Part shown: in pieces, positions 747 through 31,535 of the stretch | Layout of the letters: every line of letters starts with the position of its first letter | Position numbering within the stretch: the stretch's first letter is position 1 | Assembly: GCA_026989335.1 (NCBI GenBank) | Contig: JALSJN010000078.1 | Span: forward strand, 1-44,633 | DNA length: 44,633 nucleotides | Direction of reading: 5' to 3' | Origin: Thiotrichaceae bacterium | GTDB lineage: Bacteria > Pseudomonadota > Gammaproteobacteria > Thiotrichales > Thiotrichaceae | The notes under the pieces: generated by a model | The model's input: only the letters and a program-made list of their open reading frames with translations | Database searches by the model: none | What the model was told of the DNA's origin: nothing | Position numbers and translations under genes: made by a program

Positions 747-3404
747 TCAGGGTTTCCATAAAGAATCACGTGCAATAAAAAACAGTTTTTTCTTTAGTTC
801 TTTCTTTGTCAGGTACTTTCTTTCAAATTTACCTTCCACTGCTAATTGATTAAGCGTGCTATGCACAATCACGCTACGGGCGATTCTTTTAGGGTCAAAA
901 CTTCCGCCTTGTTTAGCATACTTAAAGCCACCTGCCGCACGTTTTTTATCTATTTTTTGCAGTGAGTTAGCAAATTGATCATGAATGTTGTCATCTTTAA
1001 TCTGCTTAATTAAAAAATCATACGCTTTATTAACCGCGTCTTTATATTTAGGCTCTAATAGTGCTATTTCTAACCAGGGTTCCAAATCATAGAGATGATA
1101 GTGCAAGGCATCCCTTTCTTTATAATCAAAGCTAGAACCATCTTCGTGCAGGTTATTAAAGAGATGTACTTGCAAGGTTTCACGATCAGACTTTAAAGAG
1201 ACTTCATCATTCAGTAAACGGTCTAACAGCAGTAACATTTTAAGTTGATGGGTCTGTAAGTTATTTTGGAAGCTGCTAGGGCCAAATACCCACTTATGTT
1301 TAGCGGTTTGGATTTCTTTTAGCCAATTATTTATGATTTTTTGCTCATCAAGCGAAAAGTAACATCGCAGTAAATCATATGACCATAAAAAACCTTCTAA
1401 GCGGGTTTCATTTATTGGGTGGCCATTGCTTTTGTAGGTTTGTGCCCAGTCAAGCAATAACTCTTTAGCTTTTTCTAAATAGGCAGGTTTATTATTGATA
1501 AAAAAAGCGAGGCTTAACAGTGCGGTTGTTTCAGCATCTCTTAATGACCTTCGAGTTGTTTTAAGGCGTTCATCGCTAGCGTCGGTAATGCCAGAGCTTG
1601 TGAGTGATTTAAGAGCGCTTGAGGTTATAGCTAAATTTTTATCAGACTTTTTTAATAAGAGCTTTGGCCATTTCACATCTAAAAATGGCTTTGTTGATTT
1701 ATTAATACTTTTTAAGTTTTGAAATATGTTCTTTGGATACAAACGTGGTTTCGACTTACAATAAGTTGCTACTACCGTAGTTTTACTCACATCATCTGCA
1801 TAAGCGATACCAAAAAGATTACTATCGTTAGACTCTTTATTTGTAACTGATAAAGCTTGTTTTTCATTCTTGTTAAAGAAAGCTGTAACTTTCTTCCACC
1901 AGGGTCGTTGATTTTGAGACTCTTTTTTAATTATCAAAGTAACCGGAAGTCCCAATGGGATTGCCGCCGTTTGTTTATTGGTAAACGATAAAGTAAGTTT
2001 AACAGTATTTTCTTTAGGAACATTCCAGTTAAGGAGTTCTTTGTTGGAGGGGTTAAAAGTATTAACGGTGTATTCTATTTTATCAATGACTGCGAATATT
2101 TTTTCATCGAAAGTAGTAGACGTCACTCGTGCTTTATTCCCAGCCTTTAATTCAAGCGCTTGTTGCTGTGTTATGTACGCCTCAATGTATTCGTGACTGT
2201 TTTCTGGTTGAATTAAGGCTATTGTTTGACCTCGGCTAAGGTACTGATGCTGTTCATCGAGCACACTCACAACATTTCCAGAAACTAAGCTTTTCAACGT
2301 TTTTATATTTTGACCAATGCCAAGTGTTATTTTATTGGTCTGAATATCTGCCTCTAGCTTTTTTAATCTTTTACCTAAAACCCGAGCTGTATTTCTACTG
2401 CGTGAACGTTTTTGTTGAGCAATCACCAGTTGCTCTTTTCCAAGCGAAAGTTTTATTTTTGCAGAAGTTACCTTATCATTACTGGCATTGCACTCTGCAT
2501 TACGCTTTAACGGTGCGCGCCTGTCTATTTCAGTTTCATAACGTGCATTACACTTAATCTGTTGCGTACTTAATGCTGCAGATAAAGCCGCTTGTGCTGC
2601 GTCTATTTTTCGTTGAAAGAGATCAAGTGACCCCACATTATTATTCTTTTTTGTTATTTCTGCTTTTATTAAAAACTGCTGACTTTCAAGGTCTTGTAAT
2701 GCAGTATTATTGTTATCCGATTGTGCTTTTAAAGTAACTAATGGTTGGCCGACTACAATCGTATTTCCTGCACTGATATATACTTCTTCAACACTACCCT
2801 GATAGGGTGACTGAATAGGCACTAAAGGTTTAGAGATAAAGGCCGAGTTAACCTCCACTTCGGTTAATTTTCGTTGTAAGCTGGACAAACTAAAAGCAAG
2901 CAGTGCTGCCCCAAGAAGAACATAAGCACTACTAAATAATAAGCGTTTAAAGAAGAATGATTTTTTATTACTAACTTCCGCTAGTTGCGTGCTAGCCGGC
3001 GTTACAGGCATATCAACACGACGAAGCACATTATCAATATTAACCATATCACCCGTTTCTAATGCTTCTGAGAAATAGCGAAGCAATTCACGATGTTCTT
3101 CTGGAATACTTTCAAAATGAGCAATTAGCTCTTTTTTTTCTGAGTTGTAGTTTATCTGACTTGCGGCAGTTTCAAATTGAATATTAAAACTCTTAAAACG
3201 AATAATCAATTTGCCAGTAAATGGCTTATCAGAATGAATTGGATGAGGAAATTCAACCGCTTTAAAATAATCCATATTCCATTTAGGAACATCATAAATA
3301 TGACCATCAATCTCCACTTGTAGTGGAAATAAATCACGTTTGTGAAGCGATCTGCTGGGTGCATCCCAATAAAATACTTCACTGCTTAAGCTTTTTTTTG
3401 ACAT
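747..3404 (-). CDS. Alg44-like PilZ/HlyD co-polymerase fused to a PL5 alginate-lyase-like domain
   Basis: 885 residues. Residues ~1-130 look like the PilZ domain of Alg44, but the c-di-GMP motifs are weak: R18 and R23 are present, while the expected D/NxSxxG reads NMDYFK at 43-48. One membrane helix lies at ~155-175 (FSSAYVLLGAALLAFSL). Residues ~190-500 are a periplasmic HlyD/membrane-fusion region with a lipoyl-like half (SPYQGSVEEVYISAGNTIVV) and a coiled coil. Residues ~545-885 resemble PL5 alginate lyase (RDAETTALLSLAFF, INETRLEGFLWSYDLL, NNLQTHQLKMLLL, DALHYHLYDLEPWLEIALL). Pseudomonas Alg44 is only ~390 residues and its lyase AlgL is a separate protein, so this is a fusion. Expected role: inner-membrane co-polymerase of the Alg8-like synthase, with an attached periplasmic polymer-binding or -cleaving domain. 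The lyase active-site residues look altered, so activity is uncertain. Confidence 0.75.
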   Translation of the reverse strand: MSKKSLSSEVFYWDAPSRSLHKRDLFPLQVEIDGHIYDVPKWNMDYFKAVEFPHPIHSDKPFTGKLIIRFKSFNIQFETAASQINYNSEKKELIAHFESIPEEHRELLRYFSEALETGDMVNIDNVLRRVDMPVTPASTQLAEVSNKKSFFFKRLLFSSAYVLLGAALLAFSLSSLQRKLTEVEVNSAFISKPLVPIQSPYQGSVEEVYISAGNTIVVGQPLVTLKAQSDNNNTALQDLESQQFLIKAEITKKNNNVGSLDLFQRKIDAAQAALSAALSTQQIKCNARYETEIDRRAPLKRNAECNASNDKVTSAKIKLSLGKEQLVIAQQKRSRSRNTARVLGKRLKKLEADIQTNKITLGIGQNIKTLKSLVSGNVVSVLDEQHQYLSRGQTIALIQPENSHEYIEAYITQQQALELKAGNKARVTSTTFDEKIFAVIDKIEYTVNTFNPSNKELLNWNVPKENTVKLTLSFTNKQTAAIPLGLPVTLIIKKESQNQRPWWKKVTAFFNKNEKQALSVTNKESNDSNLFGIAYADDVSKTTVVATYCKSKPRLYPKNIFQNLKSINKSTKPFLDVKWPKLLLKKSDKNLAITSSALKSLTSSGITDASDERLKTTRRSLRDAETTALLSLAFFINNKPAYLEKAKELLLDWAQTYKSNGHPINETRLEGFLWSYDLLRCYFSLDEQKIINNWLKEIQTAKHKWVFGPSSFQNNLQTHQLKMLLLLDRLLNDEVSLKSDRETLQVHLFNNLHEDGSSFDYKERDALHYHLYDLEPWLEIALLEPKYKDAVNKAYDFLIKQIKDDNIHDQFANSLQKIDKKRAAGGFKYAKQGGSFDPKRIARSVIVHSTLNQLAVEGKFERKYLTKKELKKKLFFIARDSLWKP

Positions 3405-19842: not shown

Positions 19843-20091
19843 TTATAACTTTACCTGTTTTTCAAGCACATAAATAGACTCTTTTAATTCTTCCATACGC
19901 GCATCCAACATATCTAATGAATCACGAATCCCCCTATTATAAAAATAAGGGCCTATTTCTTCGCTAAAAAAATCCAATAAGAATTCTGCGTCAAAATTAC
20001 CAACCTCTGTATCGAGCTCATCATGTAGATACATTTTAATTTTAGGAACCAAGGACTCTTTTTCTTCTTTACTAAATTTAATTTCAGACAT
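19843..20091 (-). CDS. DUF2164 family small protein
   Basis: 82 residues from the ATG at 20091, which has an ideal GAGGAGAAA immediately upstream; the in-frame start at 20112 is less well placed. It shows the DUF2164 pattern IKFSKEEKESLVPKIKMYLH, DAEFLLDFFSEEIGPYFYNR and a C-terminal heptad-like helix (MLDARMEELKESIYVLEKQV). The family's function is unknown; it is soluble and probably dimeric. It follows the last antiporter-like gene by 34 nt, so it is the last gene of the Dab operon, though DUF2164 genes also occur in unrelated contexts. Confidence 0.85.
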   Translation of the reverse strand: MSEIKFSKEEKESLVPKIKMYLHDELDTEVGNFDAEFLLDFFSEEIGPYFYNRGIRDSLDMLDARMEELKESIYVLEKQVKL

Positions 20092-20125
20092 TTTCTCCTC
20101 ACACCTCTTCACGATTGTCTATTAC

Positions 20126-21634
20126 TTAGCGTGTAATAACACCCAACCAATCCATGCTTGATTTTTCAATCACACCTAAAATCAACTGCGGATATAAACC
20201 AACAATCAACACCAGTGCGCTCATTACAAAAGCGATAAATAATTCTCTTGGCTTTAGATCAACGGCATCGGCAATAATGTCGTTACGACACTCTCCCAAA
20301 AATGCTTTACGGAAAATCCCCAGAAAATAAGCAGCACCTAAAATAACACCAAACAATGCCGCTAGACCAACGCCGGTATAGCTGTTTAAGGCACTAATTA
20401 TAATTAAGAACTCAGCAGGAAACGTGCTCGTACCCGGCACCCCCATATTGGCAAGCCCTAAAAAGAAGAAGAAAGACGTCAGTAAAGGCATCGTTTTAGC
20501 GACACCACCCAAGCTTATAATATCGGTCGAACCGATACACTGCAGTAAAAAGCCGCTTAATAAAAATAAGCCGCCTGCCACCATAGTGAGATTTAGTAAT
20601 TGAAACACTGCACCTTGAATTCCTTGAATGCTAAAAGTAGCAATACCCAACACCACCATACCCACATGGCTTAAACTTGAAAACGCCAACATGCGCCGAA
20701 TATTGGTTTGGCTCAACGCCGCAACGGCACCGTAAACCACCCCAGTAATCCCCAAGCCAATGAGTAACCATTGATAGGTATGTGCCGCATCCGGTGCCAT
20801 CGGCACGGTAAAACGCAGCAGGCCATAAGCCCCTAGTTTTATACCAACTAGGGTTGCAATTGTTCCTGGGTGACCTTCTTGTGCGAGTACTGGCAGCCAT
20901 GTGTGCATGGGAAATAATGGTGTTTTTATACCAAAACCAAATAATAATAAAAAGAAGATAATGCTTTGGTAAGGGTTATCATCCGCAACTTGGACTAGCT
21001 GCGTATAATCAAATACATAACTGCCATCAGGCTGTATCGCCAGTAACACAAAGGCAAACGCGATTGGTAAGCCACCTGTCATCATAAATAAAACATATTT
21101 CATGCCCGCATAACGGCGGTTTGCTCCCACTCCCCAAAGGCTTAAAAGAAAATACAACGGGATTAAAGTGGTTTCCCAAAAGAACAAAAACAAGATGGTA
21201 TCAAGCGCACTAAATACACCTAAGATAGCAAATTCTAGAATCAAAATTAACGAAAAATAGCTACGCCGTAATGTTTGAATATTGTTCCACGATGACAGCG
21301 TTACCATCATAAATAGCAATGCCGCGGCGGGCAAAAACAACACAGATAACCCATCAATACCAATAAAATAATGAATATTCAGTGAGCTAATCCATGGGTT
21401 TTTTTCCACCATTTGGAAACCCGATAAATCAGCATCAAAATTAACAGCAATGATAACCGTCACTGCCAATACCAGTAAATGCGTGGTTAATGCCATCAGA
21501 CGAGCTTTAGATTCAGGAACGACTAACGTTAAAGCCGCCCCAACAGGCAAAATTACTAATAAAAGACTTAACCATGGGAAGTCAGAAAAGTGTAATGCGC
21601 TATATGCTGCATACATTGCATTGTCTTTATCCAT
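20126..21634 (-). CDS. NuoM-like antiporter subunit of the Dab operon (second NuoM-like)
   Basis: 502 residues with about 14 membrane helices. All the residues expected of a working Mrp/NuoM-type proton channel are visible: Glu in FFWETTLIPLYFLLSLWG (near 153), Lys in GFGIKTPLFPMHTWLP (near 234), Lys in VGIKLGAYGLLRF (near 266), and the late Glu in GVPGTSTFPAEFLIIISALN. Known role of the family: one proton-translocating module of complex I or Mrp antiporters. Its ATG shares a base with the stop of the preceding subunit (TAATG), showing coupling. With DabA and the other subunits it should form an ion-conducting membrane part, not a respiratory complex I. Confidence 0.9.
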   Translation of the reverse strand: MDKDNAMYAAYSALHFSDFPWLSLLLVILPVGAALTLVVPESKARLMALTTHLLVLAVTVIIAVNFDADLSGFQMVEKNPWISSLNIHYFIGIDGLSVLFLPAAALLFMMVTLSSWNNIQTLRRSYFSLILILEFAILGVFSALDTILFLFFWETTLIPLYFLLSLWGVGANRRYAGMKYVLFMMTGGLPIAFAFVLLAIQPDGSYVFDYTQLVQVADDNPYQSIIFFLLLFGFGIKTPLFPMHTWLPVLAQEGHPGTIATLVGIKLGAYGLLRFTVPMAPDAAHTYQWLLIGLGITGVVYGAVAALSQTNIRRMLAFSSLSHVGMVVLGIATFSIQGIQGAVFQLLNLTMVAGGLFLLSGFLLQCIGSTDIISLGGVAKTMPLLTSFFFFLGLANMGVPGTSTFPAEFLIIISALNSYTGVGLAALFGVILGAAYFLGIFRKAFLGECRNDIIADAVDLKPRELFIAFVMSALVLIVGLYPQLILGVIEKSSMDWLGVITR

Positions 21635-23169
21635 TATTCATGTTCGCCTCGATTACCGTATAAATTTGATAAGCCATCAAGTGCATGTTCAAATAAATCC
21701 AACCATAATTCCGAGAAAAATCCCATCCCAAGTATCACTATAATCACTGTAATCGTAATGGCTTGTTCTGTGAGCCTTGCGGAGTTTTTATCCCATTTTG
21801 ATGTATCACTATTGGGCTCTGAAAGGAAGGCTTTTTGAAACGCAAACAGTAAAAAACCCGCCGCGGTTACATTGCCCAGTGCCGCAGCAATTGTGATCAA
21901 TGCACCAAACTCAGCTATTGATGCTTCCAAGACAAAATGTACCGCATCAAACCCAGGTGTTCCTGGCATCCCTACTATTGCTAGACCAGCAATTAAAAAG
22001 GCAATTCCTGCCAGCGGTAAAAACTCAAATAAGCCACCCAAACGAGACATGACTGAGGTATTGGTTCGCTCCCAAATAAGCCCGGTCATAAACATTAAAG
22101 CAGATATCGCCAAGCCAAAATTAATGGCCAGCATAATACCGCCTTCAAAACCATTCCGACTTAAGGTGAATAAACCAATGGTTAAAATACCAGTATGGCT
22201 GATTACTCCATATGCCATCAAACGCCTTAAATTGGTCTGGCGCATGGCTAAAACAGCCGCATAAAAAATTCCAACCATGGCAAAAATAACTATAATATTG
22301 TGCCAATCATTCACCGCATCCGGCAGTATTGGAAATACAAAACGCAGTAAGCCAAAAACACCCACTTTTAAGCCCAGTAATAACACTGGAGCAACTGATA
22401 CATTGCCGTGTTGCATGGCGATAGGTAACCAACCATGCAAAGGAAACACTGGGATACGAATGCCAAAGCCGTAAAATAAAGTAAAGAAAATAAACGTGCC
22501 AATGGCAGGTTCAACCGGTGTTTTTGCCAAGTCATACAAGTCAAAAGACCAACGACTAGCTTCAACGGTATTTAACTGATGCGCCGAGAAATTCCAACCC
22601 AGCATCAAAGTCCCAATCACCATTAAAATGATACTGATAGCCATAAATTTGGCATAAGTAAATATCATCGGTTGAGGGTCAATATAAGTCGCCCAACGAT
22701 ATAAAAGTACACCGACAGCAATAATTTCCAGTATCGACATCAACACAAACCACAACAAATCAACCGTCATGAATTGGCTCATTAGAACAGCTTGGATAAA
22801 GGTAACAACGGCTAATACCGATGTATTGTGTAAACCTCTAAAAATAACAAATAAAACTGACAATAAACCCAATAGCCCATTGAGCAGTATAAATAAAATC
22901 CCAATACCATCAACTGCCGCATGATAAGGTAACCCAAGCACACTGGCTTTATTCGCAAACTGCATGGTAACGGCTTCAGCTGAACCTATACTTGTATCAA
23001 AAATCTGATACAAATAAATAGCAAGTATTAACTCCAAACTGCTTGCAACGATCGCCAATAATGCCGCTGGCATATTACGCATTTTCCACAGTAAAAGTGC
23101 TGCAACTAAGGGTAGAAGTTGCATGATTTCTAAAATGGGTAATGCGCTATATGTTTCTAAAAATTCCAT
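21634..23169 (-). CDS. NuoM/NuoN-like antiporter subunit with atypical channel residues
   Basis: 511 residues from the ATG at 23169. A longer frame to 23280 runs into the palindromic element and has no family-like N-terminus; MEFLETYSALPILEIMQLLP fits a membrane start. About 14 helices. The TM5-type Glu remains (LMSILEIIAVGVLLYRW), but the TM7 lysine of the family is Arg238 (GFGIRIPVFPLHGWLP), and the late Glu of GTxxFxxEF is His near 411 (GTPGFDAVHFVLEAS). The TM8 Lys is kept (GLKVGVFGLLRF). It is therefore the most divergent of the four antiporter-like subunits and may be a structural or differently coupled channel. Only a weak ribosome binding site is visible. Coupled to the next gene by TAATG. 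Confidence 0.85.
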   Translation of the reverse strand: MEFLETYSALPILEIMQLLPLVAALLLWKMRNMPAALLAIVASSLELILAIYLYQIFDTSIGSAEAVTMQFANKASVLGLPYHAAVDGIGILFILLNGLLGLLSVLFVIFRGLHNTSVLAVVTFIQAVLMSQFMTVDLLWFVLMSILEIIAVGVLLYRWATYIDPQPMIFTYAKFMAISIILMVIGTLMLGWNFSAHQLNTVEASRWSFDLYDLAKTPVEPAIGTFIFFTLFYGFGIRIPVFPLHGWLPIAMQHGNVSVAPVLLLGLKVGVFGLLRFVFPILPDAVNDWHNIIVIFAMVGIFYAAVLAMRQTNLRRLMAYGVISHTGILTIGLFTLSRNGFEGGIMLAINFGLAISALMFMTGLIWERTNTSVMSRLGGLFEFLPLAGIAFLIAGLAIVGMPGTPGFDAVHFVLEASIAEFGALITIAAALGNVTAAGFLLFAFQKAFLSEPNSDTSKWDKNSARLTEQAITITVIIVILGMGFFSELWLDLFEHALDGLSNLYGNRGEHE

Positions 23170-23184
23170 ATATCTAGTGCCTAA

Positions 23185-23460
23185 CCTTAAGAAATCTATG
23201 AATAACCTAGTTGAGATTCTGTAAGTCTCTAGGGCATCATATCCTAGACGCACTTTGCAGGGAATGCTTATTGCCTTCACAAAAAGTGCAACGACGGAGA
23301 TGATGCCCTAGAGACTTACCCTACGGGGGCTTAGCCAAGTTTCCAATTTCTTCGTTATTGATTTGAACCTTAGAATGACTATGCTTAAAATCAATGCCTC
23401 GAACTTGAAAACTTGGCGTTGCCAGAACTCAGCTAGGTTATTCAAGAGATTCCTTAAAGT
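23185..23460. repeat. cloverleaf-like nested palindromic element inside the Dab operon
   Basis: Three arm pairs. The outer arms, 23185-23220 and 23424-23460, pair imperfectly (core gaataacctag / ctaggttattc). Inside them lie a perfect 20-bp inverted repeat, gtaagtctctagggcatcat (23221-23240) against 23300-23319, and an imperfect hairpin with arms near 23335-23368 and 23388-23416 (ccaagttt / aaacttgg). RNA or single-stranded DNA could fold as a closed stem with two side hairpins. The element occupies the whole gap between dabB and the next gene and covers the dabB stop codon. No ORF. Confidence 0.8.
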
Positions 23461-25031
23461 ACAACAACAAAAGTTGCCATAATTAACACCAAAACATAGC
23501 GTGGCTGAGTCAGTAATTTATCAATTCTTACTAAGTAGTTTCCTAAGAAGTTAACTGCTTTCATTAAACCTTCACCACTACCTTTTAAGATAAAACGTTC
23601 TTCTAAAACCTGTAAAGAGCCAGCAAATAGTTCTAGTGATTTACCAAATATACCGCGGCCTTTTCCCACATCACTACTTACCGTAAACTTACCTTGTTGC
23701 TGTGCCTCCCAGTGTGACAGGGTATTCAACATCGTAGTATTTGATGGAATTCCAGTGATTCGATCAACAACCTGCTCATCAAATACTTGCACTTCATTGG
23801 CTAATGCCCGCGTCGGTTTCGTAAGCATCCAGTCGGCTATACCATCCAACCAGAAGCGTTGTAAAGCAGCGGTGTAGAGCCATGTTTTTTGATTTAACCA
23901 CTGGGGTACAGGTGCAGCAGGCGATGTAACTTGCTGCATAAATGACGGCGCGTGTAAAAATTGATAAGCACGCCAAACCGCATGTGCCACAATATGACCC
24001 AGCGCCAATTCAAACCATCCCAAGCCAATCCACACCATCATTAGACCAACTTGTGCTAATGTTGAGAACATAAATGAAGATTTCACATCCGTTTGCACCA
24101 AGCCCACTATGTAGGCATAAACGATAGTCACCAAACCTGTAAGAATAATAAAAACCATTAAAGCGGGCGCTTGAATTAATAAAGACTCCGTTCGAATTAA
24201 TAAATAAACCCCCGCATGTACCATTAAGGAGCCATAAAAAACTGCGCTAGAAGGTGTCGGCCCTTCAAGTGCACGTGTGATCCACGCTGAAAATGGGAAC
24301 TGGGCAGACTTGGCAAACGCAGCAATCATAAAACCAAACAGGATAATACCGATGTGAATTTTTGAGGTAATCATCGACCCCATTTCAATCCAATCTACTG
24401 TGCCTAACCAAAAAAAGGAAAAAGCGATCGCTAAAATAAAGCCTGCATCACCAATTCGGTTAGTTACAAAGGCCCGCGTGGCATTAGTCGTTGCTACATC
24501 ACGGTGCCATGAATAAGCGATTAACAAATACGAACTTACGCCAGCTAGCTCCCAGCCGATAAATGTTAAAATCGCATTACCCGACAATGTCATTAAAAAC
24601 ATGGCGGCATTAAACACCGAAAGCATCATAAAAAAGCGTTGAAAGCCTGCTTCTCGATGTAAATAATTAACCGAAAATTTTGTAACGATAAGCGTAATAA
24701 ACCCCACTAACGTTGCCATTACAAGACTTTTATAATCCATGATAAAGCTGATATTAATATGATATTCACCGGATGAAAGCCACTCACCCAAACTAATCGT
24801 TGCGCTAGGAAGCCCTTTTACTAAAGCGAAAACATCAAGTGCTAAAATGAGTAAAAAGGATAGACTAATGGCCCCCAGCGCTACGGCTGAGGTTTGCTTC
24901 TCGCCTGACTCGCCTCGGTTCCACGAAAAAATAAAGCCTATTGCAATCCACAGTGCTGCCAGTAAAGGCAATAATGGAATCAACCCCAGTATGACTTTTA
25001 ATAACGGCAGTGATTCCGTTGTATCAAGCAT
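23454..25031 (-). CDS. dabB: DabB-like (NuoL-type) subunit of the DIC accumulator
   Basis: 525 residues, NuoL/MnhA-like, with about 14 helices. Glu lies in FIGWELAGVSSYLLIAYSWH (near 160) and Lys in IAAFAKSAQFPFSAWITRAL (near 241), followed by the hallmark LEGPTPSSAVFYGSLMVHAG. The start overlaps the DabA stop by 8 nt, so the two are translationally coupled, as in known dabA/dabB pairs where DabB is the ion-conducting partner of DabA. The C-terminus (LTQPRYVLVLIMATFVVVL) is one last helix whose stop codon lies in the arm of the palindromic element at 23185-23460, so the original protein may have been slightly longer. Confidence 0.9.
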   Translation of the reverse strand: MLDTTESLPLLKVILGLIPLLPLLAALWIAIGFIFSWNRGESGEKQTSAVALGAISLSFLLILALDVFALVKGLPSATISLGEWLSSGEYHINISFIMDYKSLVMATLVGFITLIVTKFSVNYLHREAGFQRFFMMLSVFNAAMFLMTLSGNAILTFIGWELAGVSSYLLIAYSWHRDVATTNATRAFVTNRIGDAGFILAIAFSFFWLGTVDWIEMGSMITSKIHIGIILFGFMIAAFAKSAQFPFSAWITRALEGPTPSSAVFYGSLMVHAGVYLLIRTESLLIQAPALMVFIILTGLVTIVYAYIVGLVQTDVKSSFMFSTLAQVGLMMVWIGLGWFELALGHIVAHAVWRAYQFLHAPSFMQQVTSPAAPVPQWLNQKTWLYTAALQRFWLDGIADWMLTKPTRALANEVQVFDEQVVDRITGIPSNTTMLNTLSHWEAQQQGKFTVSSDVGKGRGIFGKSLELFAGSLQVLEERFILKGSGEGLMKAVNFLGNYLVRIDKLLTQPRYVLVLIMATFVVVL

Positions 25032-28000
25032 GCACTTTTACCGTTTCTATCAAGGCTGCTGGTAAATGGTCATAATTCCCGTTATACCAGTCTTCTGATT
25101 GTTTAATGGTGCTCACTTCAATCGCTGTATTGTCGCCCTTTTTATTGTTGGCTTCGTTCGACCATATCTCCCAGCCTTTTTCTGGGTTGAACGTGTGGAT
25201 CTGATCCGAGTCAGGATCTTTGGCCGATAACAGTACCCAGCCATTCCCAACTAATTCTTGTATTGAAGGCTGGTTATTATAAATCTGCGTTAAGGTTTCA
25301 ATTTTTGCCTCCACCATTAACTGTAAACGCATAGGTTCATGAATCTCAATCATTTGTAATGGTAAACCTGTACGTAAATCACCGCTCGCTCCTTCCATCA
25401 CACCGAATAAACCACTTAGATTATGAACGATTTTTGAGCCGCAACCATATCTCTCGTTATTTACCGCAGAGAAGTAATATTCCAAATTAATCCCAGCGCC
25501 AACGGGTCCTGCACTTAATAAAATCCGTTCTAAAAATTTCCCCTCTGGATCTACACTGGCATCATAAGAAATCAAAAAACAGCGTCGATCCATAAACATG
25601 CCTTGAGATAAATGCCTACGGCCAACAAAGCCTGTGGCAATGGTGGCGTGCCCAAGTTCAGGCCGTGCCTGAGAAATATCAACGGCACGACCAGCAATAT
25701 GTTTTTTAGCCGATTTCAATGTCGGGTTTTTAGGTGCTGATGCCAACTTTCGACAACGCTCATGAGCCGATTGTTGACAGGCTAGTGCAACTTCATTTTG
25801 TAATTTTTTAAAGGGTTTTTGCAATGGTTCAGGGATTAAATCAATATCTTCCCAGCTAATTTTCTCATTACAAGTATCGTGCTCTGCACCCACAAACCAA
25901 CAGTCATCAGGAATGCTTATTGTACGTTTTACTAACTGTTTACGTACCTCTGGATGATTGGCCATCGCCGCAAACGCGCGCCCATTAGGGCCACTAAATT
26001 TACCGCTGCAAGCACCACAGCCATAAGCAGAAGCATGCGGGTTATTTTGATTATTGGAGTAATGCCCAATTAATACCACAAAGTTAGAAAAGCCTGATAA
26101 CAAGCCATTATTTTGTAAGAATGCTTCGACGATATTGGTTTGTTCATCAATGGTAAAACCGTGTTTTAAATGTCTAAAGCTGGATGACTTATCCTTAGAA
26201 AAGGTGGTATCTATACGTGTTACTGGTTTTTTATTTAAGCTTTTTTGTAGCGACAAAATCCTCTCGCTCCAAGTCAAGGGTGAAAATATTTTCACCGCTA
26301 AAGTCAAAAAAGCAATGGGCATATAGAGTGCTGTTAAAAATGCTGTTTTAAGCACACTACGATGTGAATCTTGATGAATAAAATTCTTTAGTTGCACCGT
26401 TACCGCAGCCCTACGTTTGTGCTTTTCTACCGCTTCAACATGCTGAGCATCGGCTACTTCTTCTATTTCATGTTGGGGTGTTGCAACCACGGGGCAAAGT
26501 GGAAATGACTCTTTTTCATACAAGCCCTTCCAGTTCATCACGATACCAAAAAAAGCTGCTGCGCCAAACGTTTCGATAGCAGGATTTTGATGCTCAAGGT
26601 GACGACGTAACCCTTCTTCACGATCATCCATACAAAATATTAACTGCGCTTGCGGGCGCTGATCACGATTCGCCCAGGTTCCTCTACCATGATTTTTAGC
26701 GACCGTAGCAAACACTTGGTCACGGTAATGATTTTCATAGGCTTGTAATAAAATAAAACCGGCAGTTTGTTTGTCCATCTGCGCAATACAATCAAACAAT
26801 GTATTTATCTGGGTTGCATTAAGTTGTGAAATGTCTCTAGCGTTTAAACCTAAATGTTGAGCTAAACGAAATAACACCCATGCATTTTTCTCGGCAAGTT
26901 GATCATTACCCCTTGTTGTTGTACGTACCTTTGCGACATCATCACTTTGTTGCCAAGTCCAGATAATTTGCGCTAATTGTTGCCATTCTTCCTTGTGAGT
27001 ATTTAACGATTCTCGTTGTGCCGTTAATGCGATTAGCCTTTGCGCACTGCCTTTTACATATTCAGGTAAGTGCTCATTAAACAAGCCATAACGTACCAAG
27101 TGCTCTGCATCCTGCTGGTGCAAGTAGCCACGAATAGTGTCAAGGTCACCTTCAATCAACCACAAACGACGACATAGTTTACGAATATGTAAATGTTCAA
27201 GCACCAAGCGTACTGCTAGGTAATCAAAAATATCTACCTGCATTTCAGTATTGCTATTGTATTCTGGCTTTTTATGCCGCCAATAAAACATTCCCGACCA
27301 ACCAGGTAAATCCAACGCTAGCCGAGTGATATAAGCACCCCATTTATCTTCTGGAATACCCATTCGCCCAAGCTCAGTAACGATGGTATCTAGCGCAGAA
27401 TTTGGTAATGAATTGAGGTGTTCTTGCCAATCAGGTATGTCATTAAAGAACCTATTGCTATCCACTTTTGCGCTGGCTTTCCAACTTTGATAAAAGCTTT
27501 TATTCATCACAGAGTTAGCATGCCAGCGCGCAAAACCTTCATCCAGCCAATTAGAAATATAGGGTAATAAATAAGGGACAATTTCTGTTTGAACATCTTC
27601 CCCTGTTAGTGCTTTTAAAAAACCACGCAGGGTATAACTGTGACCAATTTTATCAATAGATTTATTTAATTGTTGCCAAGATTTTTTTTGAATAAGCGGA
27701 TTGATTTTAGATGATGATTTTGCCTCAATATCTGCTGTTACATTGAAATCTGTTAATTGTTTTATAACGGTGTGTAAATTAAAGTCACCGGTCTTGTCTT
27801 GCACCAGTGCTTCTAGTTGTTGCCAGGCTTCTTGCTGTGTTTCTTGAGTTTTAGGCAGAACATCATTAGCAATTGCGCTACCGTTTTCACTGGATATTAT
27901 TTTAGAAAATATTTTTTCAGCCTGCTCAGGTGCAAGATTTGTCATTCCTTCTGGATGAACGAACTTGACATCTAAGTTTAAGACATTAATACAAGCCTTC

Positions 28001-28509
28001 CACAGGGCCTGAATATAGTCTGATTCTTTTGTTGCCCCTAAACAAGCTACTCGTACATCTTCAGGTATATCATCTTGAAAGGTCACTAAAGCATGCGCTT
28101 CTTCGGTTTGCCAAATCAACTGACACCGAGAGATTTTCTTGAGTGAAAATAAGGCTGCGGTTCGATAAACATCGTGGCGACGAATAACTTTTTTATTCTC
28201 AATAATAATGTCATTAGCATTAAGCGATTTATTCTTTAATAGTGCCGACTTTATACCATCATCTGTCAACCGCTCTTCACGATAACTCTGACGAAAACGT
28301 AACTGCGGCCAATAGCCATAAGCCCCCGTTAATTCATGCGAGGCCTTCATCGCATCGGGGAACTTCAAGTGCTCAAAGCCATGCAAGGTATTATGATGAA
28401 CAAAGTCTTTAATTGAAGCTTGCGCGGGTAACACATGCGCAAAGCGTTCTACCGCATGAAGTATTTCATCCGTTGCGGCAGTAAGTTGCGATGTAGATTC
28501 CTTTAACAA
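25024..28509 (-). CDS. dabA: DabA-like (UPF0753/DUF2309) inorganic carbon transport subunit, extra long
   Basis: 1161 residues; characterised DabA is ~830. The beta-carbonic-anhydrase-like zinc site is intact: C626 and D628 in LIFCMDDREEGLRRHLE, H816 in VVLIGHYSNNQNNPHAS and C831 in AYGCGACSGKFSG. The 15-residue H-to-C spacing equals that of Halothiobacillus DabA (H524/C539). The N-terminal family motif FVHHNTLHGFEHLKF lies near 36-50. Expected role: peripheral cytoplasmic subunit that hydrates CO2 in one direction, energised by the membrane subunits. The start is a TTG at 28509 with AGG about 9 nt upstream; the next ATG would delete the N-terminal motif. Compared with the short form, about 275 residues are added before the zinc site. 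Confidence 0.92.
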   Translation of the reverse strand: MLKESTSQLTAATDEILHAVERFAHVLPAQASIKDFVHHNTLHGFEHLKFPDAMKASHELTGAYGYWPQLRFRQSYREERLTDDGIKSALLKNKSLNANDIIIENKKVIRRHDVYRTAALFSLKKISRCQLIWQTEEAHALVTFQDDIPEDVRVACLGATKESDYIQALWKACINVLNLDVKFVHPEGMTNLAPEQAEKIFSKIISSENGSAIANDVLPKTQETQQEAWQQLEALVQDKTGDFNLHTVIKQLTDFNVTADIEAKSSSKINPLIQKKSWQQLNKSIDKIGHSYTLRGFLKALTGEDVQTEIVPYLLPYISNWLDEGFARWHANSVMNKSFYQSWKASAKVDSNRFFNDIPDWQEHLNSLPNSALDTIVTELGRMGIPEDKWGAYITRLALDLPGWSGMFYWRHKKPEYNSNTEMQVDIFDYLAVRLVLEHLHIRKLCRRLWLIEGDLDTIRGYLHQQDAEHLVRYGLFNEHLPEYVKGSAQRLIALTAQRESLNTHKEEWQQLAQIIWTWQQSDDVAKVRTTTRGNDQLAEKNAWVLFRLAQHLGLNARDISQLNATQINTLFDCIAQMDKQTAGFILLQAYENHYRDQVFATVAKNHGRGTWANRDQRPQAQLIFCMDDREEGLRRHLEHQNPAIETFGAAAFFGIVMNWKGLYEKESFPLCPVVATPQHEIEEVADAQHVEAVEKHKRRAAVTVQLKNFIHQDSHRSVLKTAFLTALYMPIAFLTLAVKIFSPLTWSERILSLQKSLNKKPVTRIDTTFSKDKSSSFRHLKHGFTIDEQTNIVEAFLQNNGLLSGFSNFVVLIGHYSNNQNNPHASAYGCGACSGKFSGPNGRAFAAMANHPEVRKQLVKRTISIPDDCWFVGAEHDTCNEKISWEDIDLIPEPLQKPFKKLQNEVALACQQSAHERCRKLASAPKNPTLKSAKKHIAGRAVDISQARPELGHATIATGFVGRRHLSQGMFMDRRCFLISYDASVDPEGKFLERILLSAGPVGAGINLEYYFSAVNNERYGCGSKIVHNLSGLFGVMEGASGDLRTGLPLQMIEIHEPMRLQLMVEAKIETLTQIYNNQPSIQELVGNGWVLLSAKDPDSDQIHTFNPEKGWEIWSNEANNKKGDNTAIEVSTIKQSEDWYNGNYDHLPAALIETVKVHA

Positions 28510-28617
28510 TCTTCTAACCTTTTTAATTGTTGTTGTAGGATAACCTGATCAAGTCCCATTATTATTAGCTTGCCAGAACTCCGCTAAAATTATAACCGAC
28601 TTAATCAGCTCACCATA

Positions 28618-30120
28618 TTAGTGTGCGTTTAATGAAACAAGTTGAACAAAATGATTAACCGTGGGCGTGATTAAATCAATAATCGGCGCGGGGTACAAGC
28701 CAAAACCTACCATACCTAGCGTCAATACCGTGGCCGCTAGCACTTCGGTATTTCTAAGGTCATTTATATCTTCCATGCTCTCATTCGCTGGGCCTGTAAA
28801 CAAGCGTTTAATCGTGCGTACACTGTAGGCAGCGCTCACCAGTACGCTAAAGGATAAAATCACCATTACCCAGCCCCACTGCTGAAAACCTCCTATCATT
28901 ACATGTAACTCAGCCACAAAACCTGCCGTTCCTGGCAAACCAACCCCTGCGATAAAGGCGATAATGATAAAGAAAGCGAAACGTGGAGTAATACCCATTA
29001 ATGACCCGTAATCATTAATATTTTTGGTTTGGGTACGCTCATACAATAAACCAATCAACATAAAAGATGCACCAGCAACAAAACCATGCGCGATCATTTG
29101 ATAAACCGCGCCTGTCATACCCGTCACATTTAAAGTGGATATTCCTAGTAGTACCACGCCCATATGTGCCACCGATGAATAGGCGATCATTTTTTTAAGA
29201 TCACTTTGCCGCCATGCCAGTAAAGCACCGTAGGTAATAGCAATTAAGGCAAGCACCATTAATAAGTTTTGTAGAGAAAGTGCCGCATTCGGTAACATTT
29301 CACAGGCTCGAATTAAACCGTAAGCCCCCATTTTTAATAATATACCAGAAAGCAAAATACTCACCGGACTAGGCGCTTCAACATGTGCAACAGGTAGCCA
29401 ACCATGCAAAGGAAATATCGGCATTTTAACGCCAAAGCCTATTAATAAACCCAAAAATATAAGCACCTGTTCGGTGTTATCTAAGTGCTTTGCGCCCTCT
29501 GCTATCGCTGTAAATGAGAATGATTGTCCGCCTGTGGCATCAAACAATACTAATAAACTCAGCAACATAAATACTGAGCCACCCATAGTATACAAAACGA
29601 AATTAAGCGCCGCTGTTTGTCGGCCTGCTCCACCCCAGCGATCAATCAAAAAAAACAAAGGGATTAAAGTCGCCTCCCAAAACACATAAAACAACGCCCA
29701 GTCACGTGCCATAAAAACGCCCATAATAGCGCTAGACAATACCAGCATCAGCAAGTAATAACTTTTAGGGTGATGATTAATTGATTTAGATGACAGAATA
29801 GCAACCCAAACTAAAAGAGTCGTCAATAGCACCATTGGATATGAAAAGCCATCGACCCCCAACGAAAAAGAAGTACCCATGCGGGTATTCCACGCATGCT
29901 GATAGGTTTGCCATAAACCTTGTTCTGTCGGGGTTACATCACCCCACAGCAATAAGTAGAAGGCATACAATAGGGTTGCTGTTGCGGTTGTAATAGCGAT
30001 AGCACGAATCACTGACACGCTACTGTTTGATGATGATTGACAATATTTGGTTGGTAATAGCGCGATAATAAACGCACCCACAAGCGGCATCAAAAGCAAA
30101 CTTAATAAGCTGGATGACAT
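28618..30120 (-). CDS. NuoM-like antiporter subunit, first gene of the Dab operon
   Basis: 500 residues, about 14 helices. Channel residues are complete: Glu in FYVFWEATLIPLFFLIDRWG (near 147), Lys in GFGVKMPIFPLHGWLP (near 230), EAPSPVSILLSGILLKMGAY, and the late Glu in GTAGFVAELHVM (near 403). AAAGG stands 4 nt before the ATG. No NADH-, FMN- or quinone-site genes (nuoB-I) accompany it, so it belongs with DabA rather than complex I. The gap to dabA is 108 nt and holds a short match to the palindromic element (28570-28586). The operon promoter should lie in 30121-30250; no clear -35/-10 was found. Confidence 0.9.
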   Translation of the reverse strand: MSSSLLSLLLMPLVGAFIIALLPTKYCQSSSNSSVSVIRAIAITTATATLLYAFYLLLWGDVTPTEQGLWQTYQHAWNTRMGTSFSLGVDGFSYPMVLLTTLLVWVAILSSKSINHHPKSYYLLMLVLSSAIMGVFMARDWALFYVFWEATLIPLFFLIDRWGGAGRQTAALNFVLYTMGGSVFMLLSLLVLFDATGGQSFSFTAIAEGAKHLDNTEQVLIFLGLLIGFGVKMPIFPLHGWLPVAHVEAPSPVSILLSGILLKMGAYGLIRACEMLPNAALSLQNLLMVLALIAITYGALLAWRQSDLKKMIAYSSVAHMGVVLLGISTLNVTGMTGAVYQMIAHGFVAGASFMLIGLLYERTQTKNINDYGSLMGITPRFAFFIIIAFIAGVGLPGTAGFVAELHVMIGGFQQWGWVMVILSFSVLVSAAYSVRTIKRLFTGPANESMEDINDLRNTEVLAATVLTLGMVGFGLYPAPIIDLITPTVNHFVQLVSLNAH

Positions 30121-30308: not shown

Positions 30309-31535
30309 ATGAAAGCCCCGAAGTCGCCCCTAGCAATACTAACTACCAGCTTACTCATTACGATTTCGATCGGCGCGTGTAATTCAGCCAATGATTCAAA
30401 AAATAATTTCAATGAAAAAGATGGAGCAACCAACAGCCCTAACGTAAGCACATCCGTTAACCAACAAATTACTTCACTGGGTGAAGAGTTATTTCATGAT
30501 GAAACCTTATCAAGAGATGGCAACCAATCGTGTGCAAGCTGCCATAATCCAGACCATGCATTTATTGATGATCGTATCAATGAAACCAGTTTAAGCCAAT
30601 CTACTCCCAGCTCTGTATCATCTGGGCAAGATTCAGCAGCATTGGGTGATAGAAATACCCCTACTGCCAGCTATGCCGCTTTTATTCCTGATTTTCATTT
30701 TGACAGTAGCGATGAGTTATTTAAAGGCGGGTAGTTTTTGGATGGCAGAGAGAAAAACCTGCATGGTCAAGCCGGACAACCCTTTTTAAACCCTGTTGAA
30801 ATGCAAACCTTAAAATCAGCAGTAGTTGCAAAGGCTAGAAAAAAACACGGTGACATTCTACGTGATTTATACGGTGAGGCTGTTTTTGATACAATTGACC
30901 GCGCTTACAATGCGATTACCTTTAGTATTTCTGAATTTGAAAAAACTGAAGAATTTTCCCCTTTTGATTCAAAATTTGACCGAGTTCTTAAAGGTGAAGA
31001 TACTTTTACTGCACAAGAAGCGCTCGGCCTAACGTTATTTAAAGCAGAAGATAAGGGTAATTGTGCTGCGTGTCACACCGTCCCAACCCTCGCCAACACT
31101 AAACAAGAAAGTACCTTTACGGATTTTAGCTACGATAACCTAGGTGTGCCGCGCAATGACATTGTTCGCGGCTTAAATGGCAAAGGCTATGAATTTGTAG
31201 ACAATGGTTTATTTCAAAACCCTCTGGTTAATGATGCGAAGTTAAAAGGTGCATTTAGAGTCTCCACATTACGCAATATTGCCGTCACTGCTCCCTATAT
31301 GCACAATGGAATCTTTAAAGATTTAAAAACCGTGGTACATTTTTATAACACCCGTGATGTTGATGGTGCACTCAATCCAGAAACATGGGATCCGTGGAGA
31401 GCATCTGAAGTAGATGCGACAAAAAACACCGAAGAGTTAGGTGATTTAAAATTAACTGATGCGGAAGAGGATGCCTTAGTCGCCTTCATGAAAACGCTAA
31501 CAGATAGTCGCTATGAGGATTTAATACCGGACTAG
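30309..31535 (+). pseudogene. MauG/cytochrome-c-peroxidase-type dihaem lipoprotein with in-frame amber codon
   Basis: One frame of 409 codons is interrupted by TAG at 30732-30734. The first part (141 residues) has a lipoprotein signal (LLITISIGACNS) and haem site 1, SCASCHNPDHAFIDD. The second part has GQPFLNPVEMQTLK, haem site 2 NCAACHTVPTLANTK and a C-terminal MauG region (FRVSTLRNIAVTAPYMHNGI, VHFYNTRDVDG). Across the break the family reads GGQFWDGR and here it reads GG-stop-FLDGR, so CAG to TAG (Gln to stop) and TGG to TTG (Trp to Leu) explain it. Without read-through only a one-haem fragment is made, so the gene is probably dead. A TTG at 30738 could in theory restart translation. AGAGAAGA precedes the first ATG. 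It converges on aroA with a 7-nt gap. Confidence 0.85.

Follow-up and report, generated by a model that had tools for sequence, protein, structure and literature searches.

The DNA analysed here, in the following the window, is a stretch of 44,633 nucleotides from a Thiotrichaceae bacterium (contig JALSJN010000078.1 of assembly GCA_026989335.1). On its minus strand it carries an operon in which dabA and dabB, the two genes of DAB-type CO2 pumps, are accompanied by three genes for NuoM-like membrane subunits, designated M1, M2 and M3. This enlarged type is named exDAB below. An earlier note on this DNA had listed six genes, and all of them are confirmed by open reading frames and Pfam. Their order of transcription is M1, dabA, dabB, M2, M3 and the DUF2164 gene:

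28618..30120, minus strand: M1 (P0001), NuoM-like antiporter subunit of 500 amino acids (aa); Pfam Proton_antipo_M
25024..28509, minus strand: DabA (P0002), 1161 aa, cytoplasmic, homologue of DabA2; Pfam PF10070, 734 bits
23454..25031, minus strand: DabB (P0003), NuoL-like, 525 aa; Pfam Proton_antipo_M and Proton_antipo_N
23199..23444, no strand: palindromic repeat specific to the genus, separating dabB from M2; no part of the machine
21634..23169, minus strand: M2 (P0004), degenerate NuoM-like protein; Pfam Proton_antipo_M
20126..21634, minus strand: M3 (P0005), NuoM-like, 502 aa; Pfam Proton_antipo_M
19843..20112, minus strand: DUF2164 protein (P0006); Pfam DUF2164, only a neighbour outside the conserved unit

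The probable start of M2 is the conserved Met at 23169, its frame being open from 23280. Among the four membrane proteins Proton_antipo_N is found by Pfam in P0003 only. In NCBIfam P0001, P0004 and P0005 exceed the subfamily cut-off of NADH-quinone oxidoreductase subunit M, with a narrow margin in the case of P0004 (264.3 vs 263.8); P0003 ranks with subunit L, but below the cut-off. Starts and stops were said to overlap in most cases, which does not apply to the window copy: only two of its five junctions do so (DabA/DabB by 8 nucleotides, M2/M3 by 1 nucleotide). M1 and DabA are separated by 108 bp and DabB and M2 by 284 bp (counted from Met 23169), the latter gap being due to the palindromic repeat. 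Correct, by contrast, was the statement that no other complex I gene is present: Pfam detects none in the stretch of the operon, and the four further minus-strand frames of at least 60 aa listed there, three nested in other genes and one just upstream, have no Pfam match. The genome contains seven Proton_antipo_M genes, namely the four of the operon and three on contig C75, for which NuoL, NuoN and a NuoM type are the highest-scoring assignments. The DUF2164 gene, formerly included in the operon, was rejected as a sixth part since it has no match in the 162 other loci scanned.

Conservation of the five-gene order

A scan with an M2 alignment (at least 80 loci) revealed a relative encoded in 568 candidate stretches. 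The titles among its matches include Thiothrix, Cocleimonas, symbionts of tubeworms and clams, Thiodiazotropha, Sulfuricella and Thiobacillus as well as Accumulibacter, Magnetococcales, Rhodospirillales, Methylomonas and others. Gene order was surveyed in 163 loci, the window included. All five classes occur in 70 of them and the exact order M1-A-B-M2-M3 in 67; 65 of the latter are distinct and co-directional, belong to several proteobacterial groups and have median gaps of 0, -8, -1 and -4 bp, so that the arrangement is no product of chance. The three full loci with another order are L032, a double unit M1-A-B-A-B-M2-M3 in which M1 and M2-M3 enclose dabA and dabB twice, and L041/L048, which lie on one contig with an extra divergent dabA. 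The double unit is whole in L032 and is also seen in L033, where the first dabA is followed by a 4.8-kb gap, and in L054 (Thiothrix fructosivorans), both cut at an end. In two-gene loci the order is B-A in all 40 examined that have a recognised DabB, whereas exDAB shows A-B. One M2 that is 66% identical to that of the window stems from a contig titled Aquificaceae metagenome-assembled genome (L050), which may be mis-binned.

Genomes in which the set is divided retain its members for the most part. Twelve were examined, chosen for an incomplete locus or as comparison, and a DabA match was obtained in all of them (in G058 for a piece only). Four methanotroph-type genomes (G059, G060, G062 and G063) exhibit the split M1-A / B-M2-M3, G015 and G057 the split A / M1-B-M2-M3, and G065 the split A / M1-M3-B-M2. 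In G061 M1-A is located at one site and a DabB-M2 gene fusion (L119, Competibacteraceae) at another; a second fusion of this kind is present in L199 (genome G115). Part of the set was unseen in G058, G061, G064, G115 and G375, and no split genome examined breaks as A-B / M1-M2-M3. Two further candidates for a DabB-M2 fusion were not accepted: in L100 the joint resembles a frame error and M3 is broken, and in L126 the long frame is only partly DabB. In a Competibacter genome a frame of 1646 aa (L231:2672-7612) comprises M1 and DabA and represents either a fusion or a stop lost by sequencing error; with one binned genome and a Met in the joint it is weak evidence only. A dabA without adjoining dabB was observed at L044:8707-11901, L045:8507-11740, L046:8381-11632 and L041:1072-4329. 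In G015 and G032 such a partnerless dabA is the sole DabA found, and M1, M2 and M3 are on another contig (in G015 together with DabB).

Co-occurrence was followed in 369 genomes from the class searched, with M2 defined by more than 400 bits and up to four candidates scored per genome. DabA was found in 83 and M2 in 17 genomes. Of the genomes with M2, 16 of 17 have DabA, compared with 67 of 352 others (Fisher p 1.8e-10 for 16, 1, 67 and 285), and without the window genome 15 of 16 (p 7e-10); as the genomes share ancestry these p values are indicative only. G098 and G257 show only M3-type matches below 300 bits to the M2 model and were not counted as M2 genomes; in G098 M1, DabA and a cut DabB are situated at a contig end. 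Among 57 near relatives M2 exceeds 700 bits in 16, all of which are within the 19 that have DabA.

Catalytic and coupling residues

In DAB2 of Halothiobacillus the zinc ligands of DabA2 are C351, H524 and C539, accompanied by the pair D353-R355, and replacement of the finger glutamate (E444A/Q) abolishes activity, as described in the parts of PMC13144422 drawn on here. The corresponding zinc-site residues of the window DabA are C626, D628, R630, H816 and C831. Across open frames of 700-1260 aa, identical sequences removed, the equivalents of C351, D353, H524 and C539 are kept in all 94 exDAB and all 42 two-gene DabAs, and that of R355 in 93 of 94 and 42 of 42. The two-gene comparison sample comes solely from the class searched, and the DabAs of L187 and L217 as well as the second copy of L048, which fall between the classes, were omitted from this count. 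The finger is different. Glutamate at the E444 position occurs in 41 of 42 two-gene DabAs vs none of the 94 exDAB sequences, seven of which have Asp, and in the other columns within eight positions of E444 none of the five commonest residues is acidic. As the segment is hydrophobic and poorly conserved, the column assignment is uncertain; in the window DabA the site is paired with Lys by phmmer and with Ala by MAFFT. An AlphaFold model of P0002 with 36 relatives (predicted local distance difference test, pLDDT, 78.9; predicted template modelling score, pTM, 0.76) places helices 688-714 and 719-742 as a predicted membrane hairpin at the position of the DAB2 finger.

For DabB the same portions of PMC13144422 report that change to Ala of S256, H260, K310, S316, H339, H343 or K347 of DabB2 impairs activity. 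They also report that the NuoL gate Glu144 is missing in DAB2 (I151 there) and that Glu introduced at I151 halves the growth yield. This makes the gate informative since exDAB DabB has Glu there as a rule. The window protein shows E161 (= NuoL E144), K241 (= K229), Y266 (= H254) and R354 (= K342). For the counts exDAB frames of 480-620 aa with a score of at least 400 and two-gene frames of 430-620 aa with a score of at least 200 were taken after removal of identical sequences. Glu is found at the E144 column in 89 of 90 exDAB DabBs vs 0 of 39 two-gene proteins. At the H254 column (DabB2 H260) 89 of 90 have Tyr, vs His in all 39 and Tyr in none, and at the K342 column (DabB2 K347) all 90 have Arg, vs Lys in all 39 and Arg in none. 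K305 and H338 are unchanged (each 90/90 and 39/39), and H334 is kept in 81 of 90 exDAB sequences. Clustering at 90% identity (86 + 37 sequences) leaves the pattern the same, and the score class coincides with operon context, an M gene being present in the locus for 90/90 exDAB and 0/39 two-gene DabBs.

The M subunits (frames of 440-600 aa, scores of at least 500 for M1 and M3 and at least 400 for M2, identical sequences removed) fall into two kinds. M1 of the window keeps Glu149, Lys232, Lys263 and Glu404, equivalent to NuoM E144, K234, K265 and E407, and within its class these are retained in 80, 80, 81 and 80 of 81 members. M3 likewise has E154, K237, K266 and E408 (82, 82, 81 and 81 of 82 members). 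In M2, however, the Glu of transmembrane helix 5 (TM5) and that of TM12 are absent, R275 replaces Lys, and TM12 contains D445, H448 and E452. Class-wide, Glu144 is found in 0/90, Arg at K234 in 90/90, the K265 equivalent in 90/90 and Glu407 in 0/90, and the three TM12 residues are conserved in at least 90%.

A tree built from 86 sequences, with 14 or 15 for each class, resolves M1, M2, M3, exDAB DabB and two-gene DabB as one clade each (support 0.998 for M1). The exDAB DabB is sister of two-gene DabB (0.967) on a long branch. M1-M3 fall together with NuoM (0.992) and not with the MrpD-like protein of L187; they are separated from the clades of complex I NuoM, the deep nodes among NuoM types having a support of only 0.01-0.37. 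The four antiporter-like subunits postulated earlier are thus distinct indeed, but M2 and M3 are sister paralogues (0.999). Since each class represents its own clade, each residue change is probably one old event retained since.

Energy coupling and alternative explanations

We favour the reading that exDAB is a membrane-potential-driven vectorial carbonic anhydrase, built from a cytoplasmic DabA, DabB and three NuoM-type subunits, in which coupling has moved to a complex-I-like arm; its probability is put at roughly 0.58. The intact zinc site argues for CO2/bicarbonate chemistry and the loss of E444 and of the His and Lys of DabB for a changed coupling route. The intact proton-path residues render M1 and M3 candidate proton channels, and M2 and DabB, both altered and the latter carrying the complex I gate, are therefore candidate relays. 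The larger energy-coupled accumulator proposed in the earlier note is supported in part, namely as an enlarged DAB-like unit with its antiporter-like stack, a conserved set often beside inorganic-carbon genes. Only M1 and M3 of the four membrane subunits keep all four NuoM proton-path residues checked, and accumulation of bicarbonate with more than one ion per CO2 is a possibility at most.

The five proteins may act as one physical complex. The zinc site of DabA would hydrate CO2 to bicarbonate while protons, the presumed ions, would flow inward via the two intact NuoM-type channels M1 and M3. M2 and DabB could relay charge or a conformational signal sideways to the DabA finger, similar to what is thought for the antiporter-like subunits of complex I, and thereby open the active site in one direction only. 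At most two ions would be used per CO2. By arithmetic, one H+ at 150-180 mV supports an accumulation of about 340- to 1100-fold, and reaching 10-50 mM bicarbonate at pH 7.6 costs 8.6-18 kJ/mol when CO2 stands at 10 or 1 micromolar. One ion is therefore usually enough and there is no default need for several; a second ion per CO2 would make a difference chiefly when the membrane potential is weak or CO2 is very scarce. A further step, that exDAB forms a separate class of CO2 pump, is put forward tentatively and we hold it to be somewhat less than an even chance. Such a class would have kept the carbonic-anhydrase head of DAB and given up its key proton-path residues in exchange for a complex-I-like arm, in which M1 and M3 would be complete proton channels and DabB and M2 altered relays.

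Other explanations start from the same genes. In genome G072 (L187:873-12780) dabA lies inside an Mrp-type operon with the order SulP - DabA - MrpE - MrpF - MrpG - MbhD/E - MnhB - MrpC - MrpD - NuoL-like - NuoM-like, and a case for sodium use has been made for the two-gene homologue MpsAB, as reported in the cited part of PMC13144422. This would fit a Na+- or K+-coupled system in which M1-M3 act as an Mrp-like cation/proton exchanger powering or balancing DabA. The ion would then not, or not only, be H+ and the extra subunits would be involved in balancing pH or salt as well as in supplying bicarbonate. We regard this as unlikely because MrpB, C, E, F and G are all missing among the window operon frames scanned, so that the Mrp gene set is not represented, and because M1-M3 have their place beside NuoM and not beside the MrpD-like protein of L187, with M1 and M3 keeping the NuoM proton-path residues.

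The operon could also encode two machines, DabA-DabB working alone and M1-M2-M3 forming a separate antiporter-like transporter with which it is only co-expressed. The two-gene DAB of Halothiobacillus does work without extra subunits according to PMC13144422, and B-M2-M3 loci without DabA exist (L115-L117, L124, L125). Yet the examined split genomes never separate the set along that line, two loci show a DabB-M2 fusion, and DabA and DabB of exDAB are devoid of residues needed by the two-subunit DAB2; we thus judge this arrangement to be distinctly improbable. Least credible, and in our estimate very improbable, is a reverse, energy-conserving use, in which the DabA reaction drives ions outward and more subunits raise the yield. 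It was suggested by the 2017 COGNAT authors in the section of PMC5700660 considered here and agrees with the presence in M1 and M3 of the four complex I residues checked. Against it stand the interpretation of DAB2 as driven by proton-motive force in the cited part of PMC13144422 and established chemistry, since CO2 hydration near equilibrium yields little energy.

Returning to the vectorial carbonic anhydrase, several observations weigh against it. NuoH, NuoJ and NuoK, which in complex I link the parts, were not seen in the operon. The AlphaFold model of the L119 DabB-M2 fusion has no reliable interface (pTM 0.58), its two halves having NuoM as best matches with a template modelling score (TM-score) of about 0.9 by target. 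The DabA model matches beta-carbonic anhydrase 8thm best but weakly (E 2.1e-3, probability 0.99; TM-score 0.13 by query and 0.26 by target length); its fold search gave no match at E 0.001 or better, and 9rd0, the DAB2 structure, is not among its best 50 matches (entries released up to 8 April 2026). In G375 M1-A is apart from M2-M3 and no DabB was found within the examined stretches, the short contig L119 is without M3, G058 has only a piece of DabA, and in some genomes (L044-L046) dabA has no membrane partner nearby. G261 (77% complete) contains M2 without DabA, this M2 starting at a contig edge, and in G257 (86% complete) an M3-type match of 238 bits occurs in the absence of both M2 and DabA. 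Both DabA and M2 are absent from the 11 other searched genomes of the window's genus (G001-G011). Finally, no carboxysome shell gene was found in the window genome, RuBisCO is absent from three of the 17 M2 genomes, and relatives include Accumulibacter, Competibacter and methanotrophs. On account of the last two points the purpose of exDAB may not be autotrophy.

Genomic context and comparison with known systems

A role in carbon supply would nevertheless agree with much of the surroundings. RuBisCO was detected in 14 of 17 M2 genomes vs 160 of 352 others (13 of 16 vs 160 of 352 without the window genome, p 0.008, the genomes sharing ancestry), and in 42 of the 67 genomes with DabA but without M2. 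A cluster of SulP permeases (STAS domain) is located within 3.5 kb of 23 of the 70 full operons and a beta-carbonic anhydrase cluster near four; these are single-linkage clusters with one member tested each. A CsoSCA-like cluster occurs near seven of the 70, its tested member being weak (25 bits vs a cut-off of 21.5). In L126 a beta-carbonic anhydrase adjoins M3, whereas none of the 16 other window frames scanned is of SulP, beta-carbonic anhydrase or CsoSCA type. The window genome (2.46 Mb, 95% complete) possesses one DabA, one beta-carbonic anhydrase and two RuBisCO large subunits, one adjoining the small subunit and the other CbbQ.

Contamination of the bin by this contig was considered and judged unlikely, because the repeat in the gap between dabB and M2 is shared by 11 of 12 genomes of the window's genus and by none of 27 others. 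The repeat (23199-23444) consists of nested inverted repeats (fold z = -12) and has 25 matches in the window genome, its own copy included. Tetranucleotide use of the contig correlates with that of two other contigs of the genome at r 0.96-0.97, which decides nothing alone since L038 from another genus reaches 0.95. A contig with the genus repeat next to 11 relatives without DabA and M2 points to loss or gain within the genus. L041 harbours a different palindromic insert, located between dabA and dabB. Elsewhere in the window two adjoining plus-strand frames at 30309-31535 correspond to successive portions of the di-haem cytochrome c peroxidase family (CCP_MauG), apparently a single gene broken into two, and at 747-3404 a single protein joins an HlyD-type and an alginate-lyase-type part.

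Compared with DAB2 of Halothiobacillus neapolitanus (DabA2-DabB2; PDB 9rd0), exDAB shares a homologous DabA (E 5e-68) with a zinc site of the beta-carbonic-anhydrase type, a predicted finger hairpin and an adjoining NuoL-like DabB. It differs in the length of DabA (1161 vs 870 aa), the absent finger Glu444, the three added NuoM-type subunits and a DabB with Glu at the I151 site, Tyr for His260 and Arg for Lys347. In other words, the finger glutamate, the His260/Lys347 path and the loss of the NuoL E144 gate, all typical of DAB, are not found in the window operon. DAB is described as a heterodimer in the cited passage of PMC8438413. Among the titles and abstract openings surveyed in the open-licence literature none describes a five-subunit DAB, which does not prove absence, the 2019 DAB paper being outside that coverage. 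As far as the passages cited go, COGcollator 2.0 mentions MpsA beside COG3002 (PMC13399641) and a Nitrospira paper (PMC7784846) bears solely on extra NuoM copies.

Closest in gene content is 'clade C' of the ybcC (dabA) operons in the COGNAT paper of 2017, where, in the section considered (PMC5700660), dabA is upstream of a nuoL-like gene, often with an extra NuoM (COG1008) and SulP (COG0659) beside it. This clade probably includes exDAB operons. The same section suggested that the ion count might depend on how many membrane subunits are present; the central idea of the earlier note is therefore not new, although the direction of energy flow was the opposite one. A five-gene composition, an analysis of coupling-path residues and a role in CO2 hydration do not appear in that section.

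The resemblance to the membrane arm of complex I lies in one NuoL-type and three NuoM-type subunits and in E144/K234/K265/E407 of M1 and M3. In contrast with complex I, Pfam finds no NuoH, NuoJ, NuoK, NuoA or redox subunit among the operon frames scanned, so the operon does not have its gene set, and the clades are separate from complex I NuoM. Mrp antiporters also contain a stack of antiporter-like subunits, combined there with the MrpB, C, E, F and G components unseen in the window operon. It has long been asked how energy is passed sideways by antiporter-like subunits in complex I, Mrp and DAB. If exDAB is a separate class of CO2 pump as outlined above, it would be a natural experiment in shifting energy coupling from the catalytic subunit to neighbouring channels. 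The coupling route can be tested by exchange and mutation because the same catalytic head is combined with a larger, different arm and with clean swaps at positions relevant in DAB2. It is this swap of coupling residues that deserves further work. The hosts comprise sulfur oxidisers, animal symbionts, methanotrophs and wastewater bacteria, and exDAB may set how CO2 is captured in them.

With the cyanobacterial NDH-1 CO2 pumps, finally, exDAB has in common a carbonic-anhydrase-like protein on an antiporter-like membrane arm. Those pumps (NdhD3/F3-CupA) use a different carbonic-anhydrase-like subunit and are electron-dependent. The NdhF3 model TIGR01960 gives only 127 bits with P0003 against a cut-off of 589, which sets the operon apart from NDH-1 (CupA was not searched for). 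Provided that exDAB does form a separate class of CO2 pump, it would be an electron-free counterpart of these pumps.

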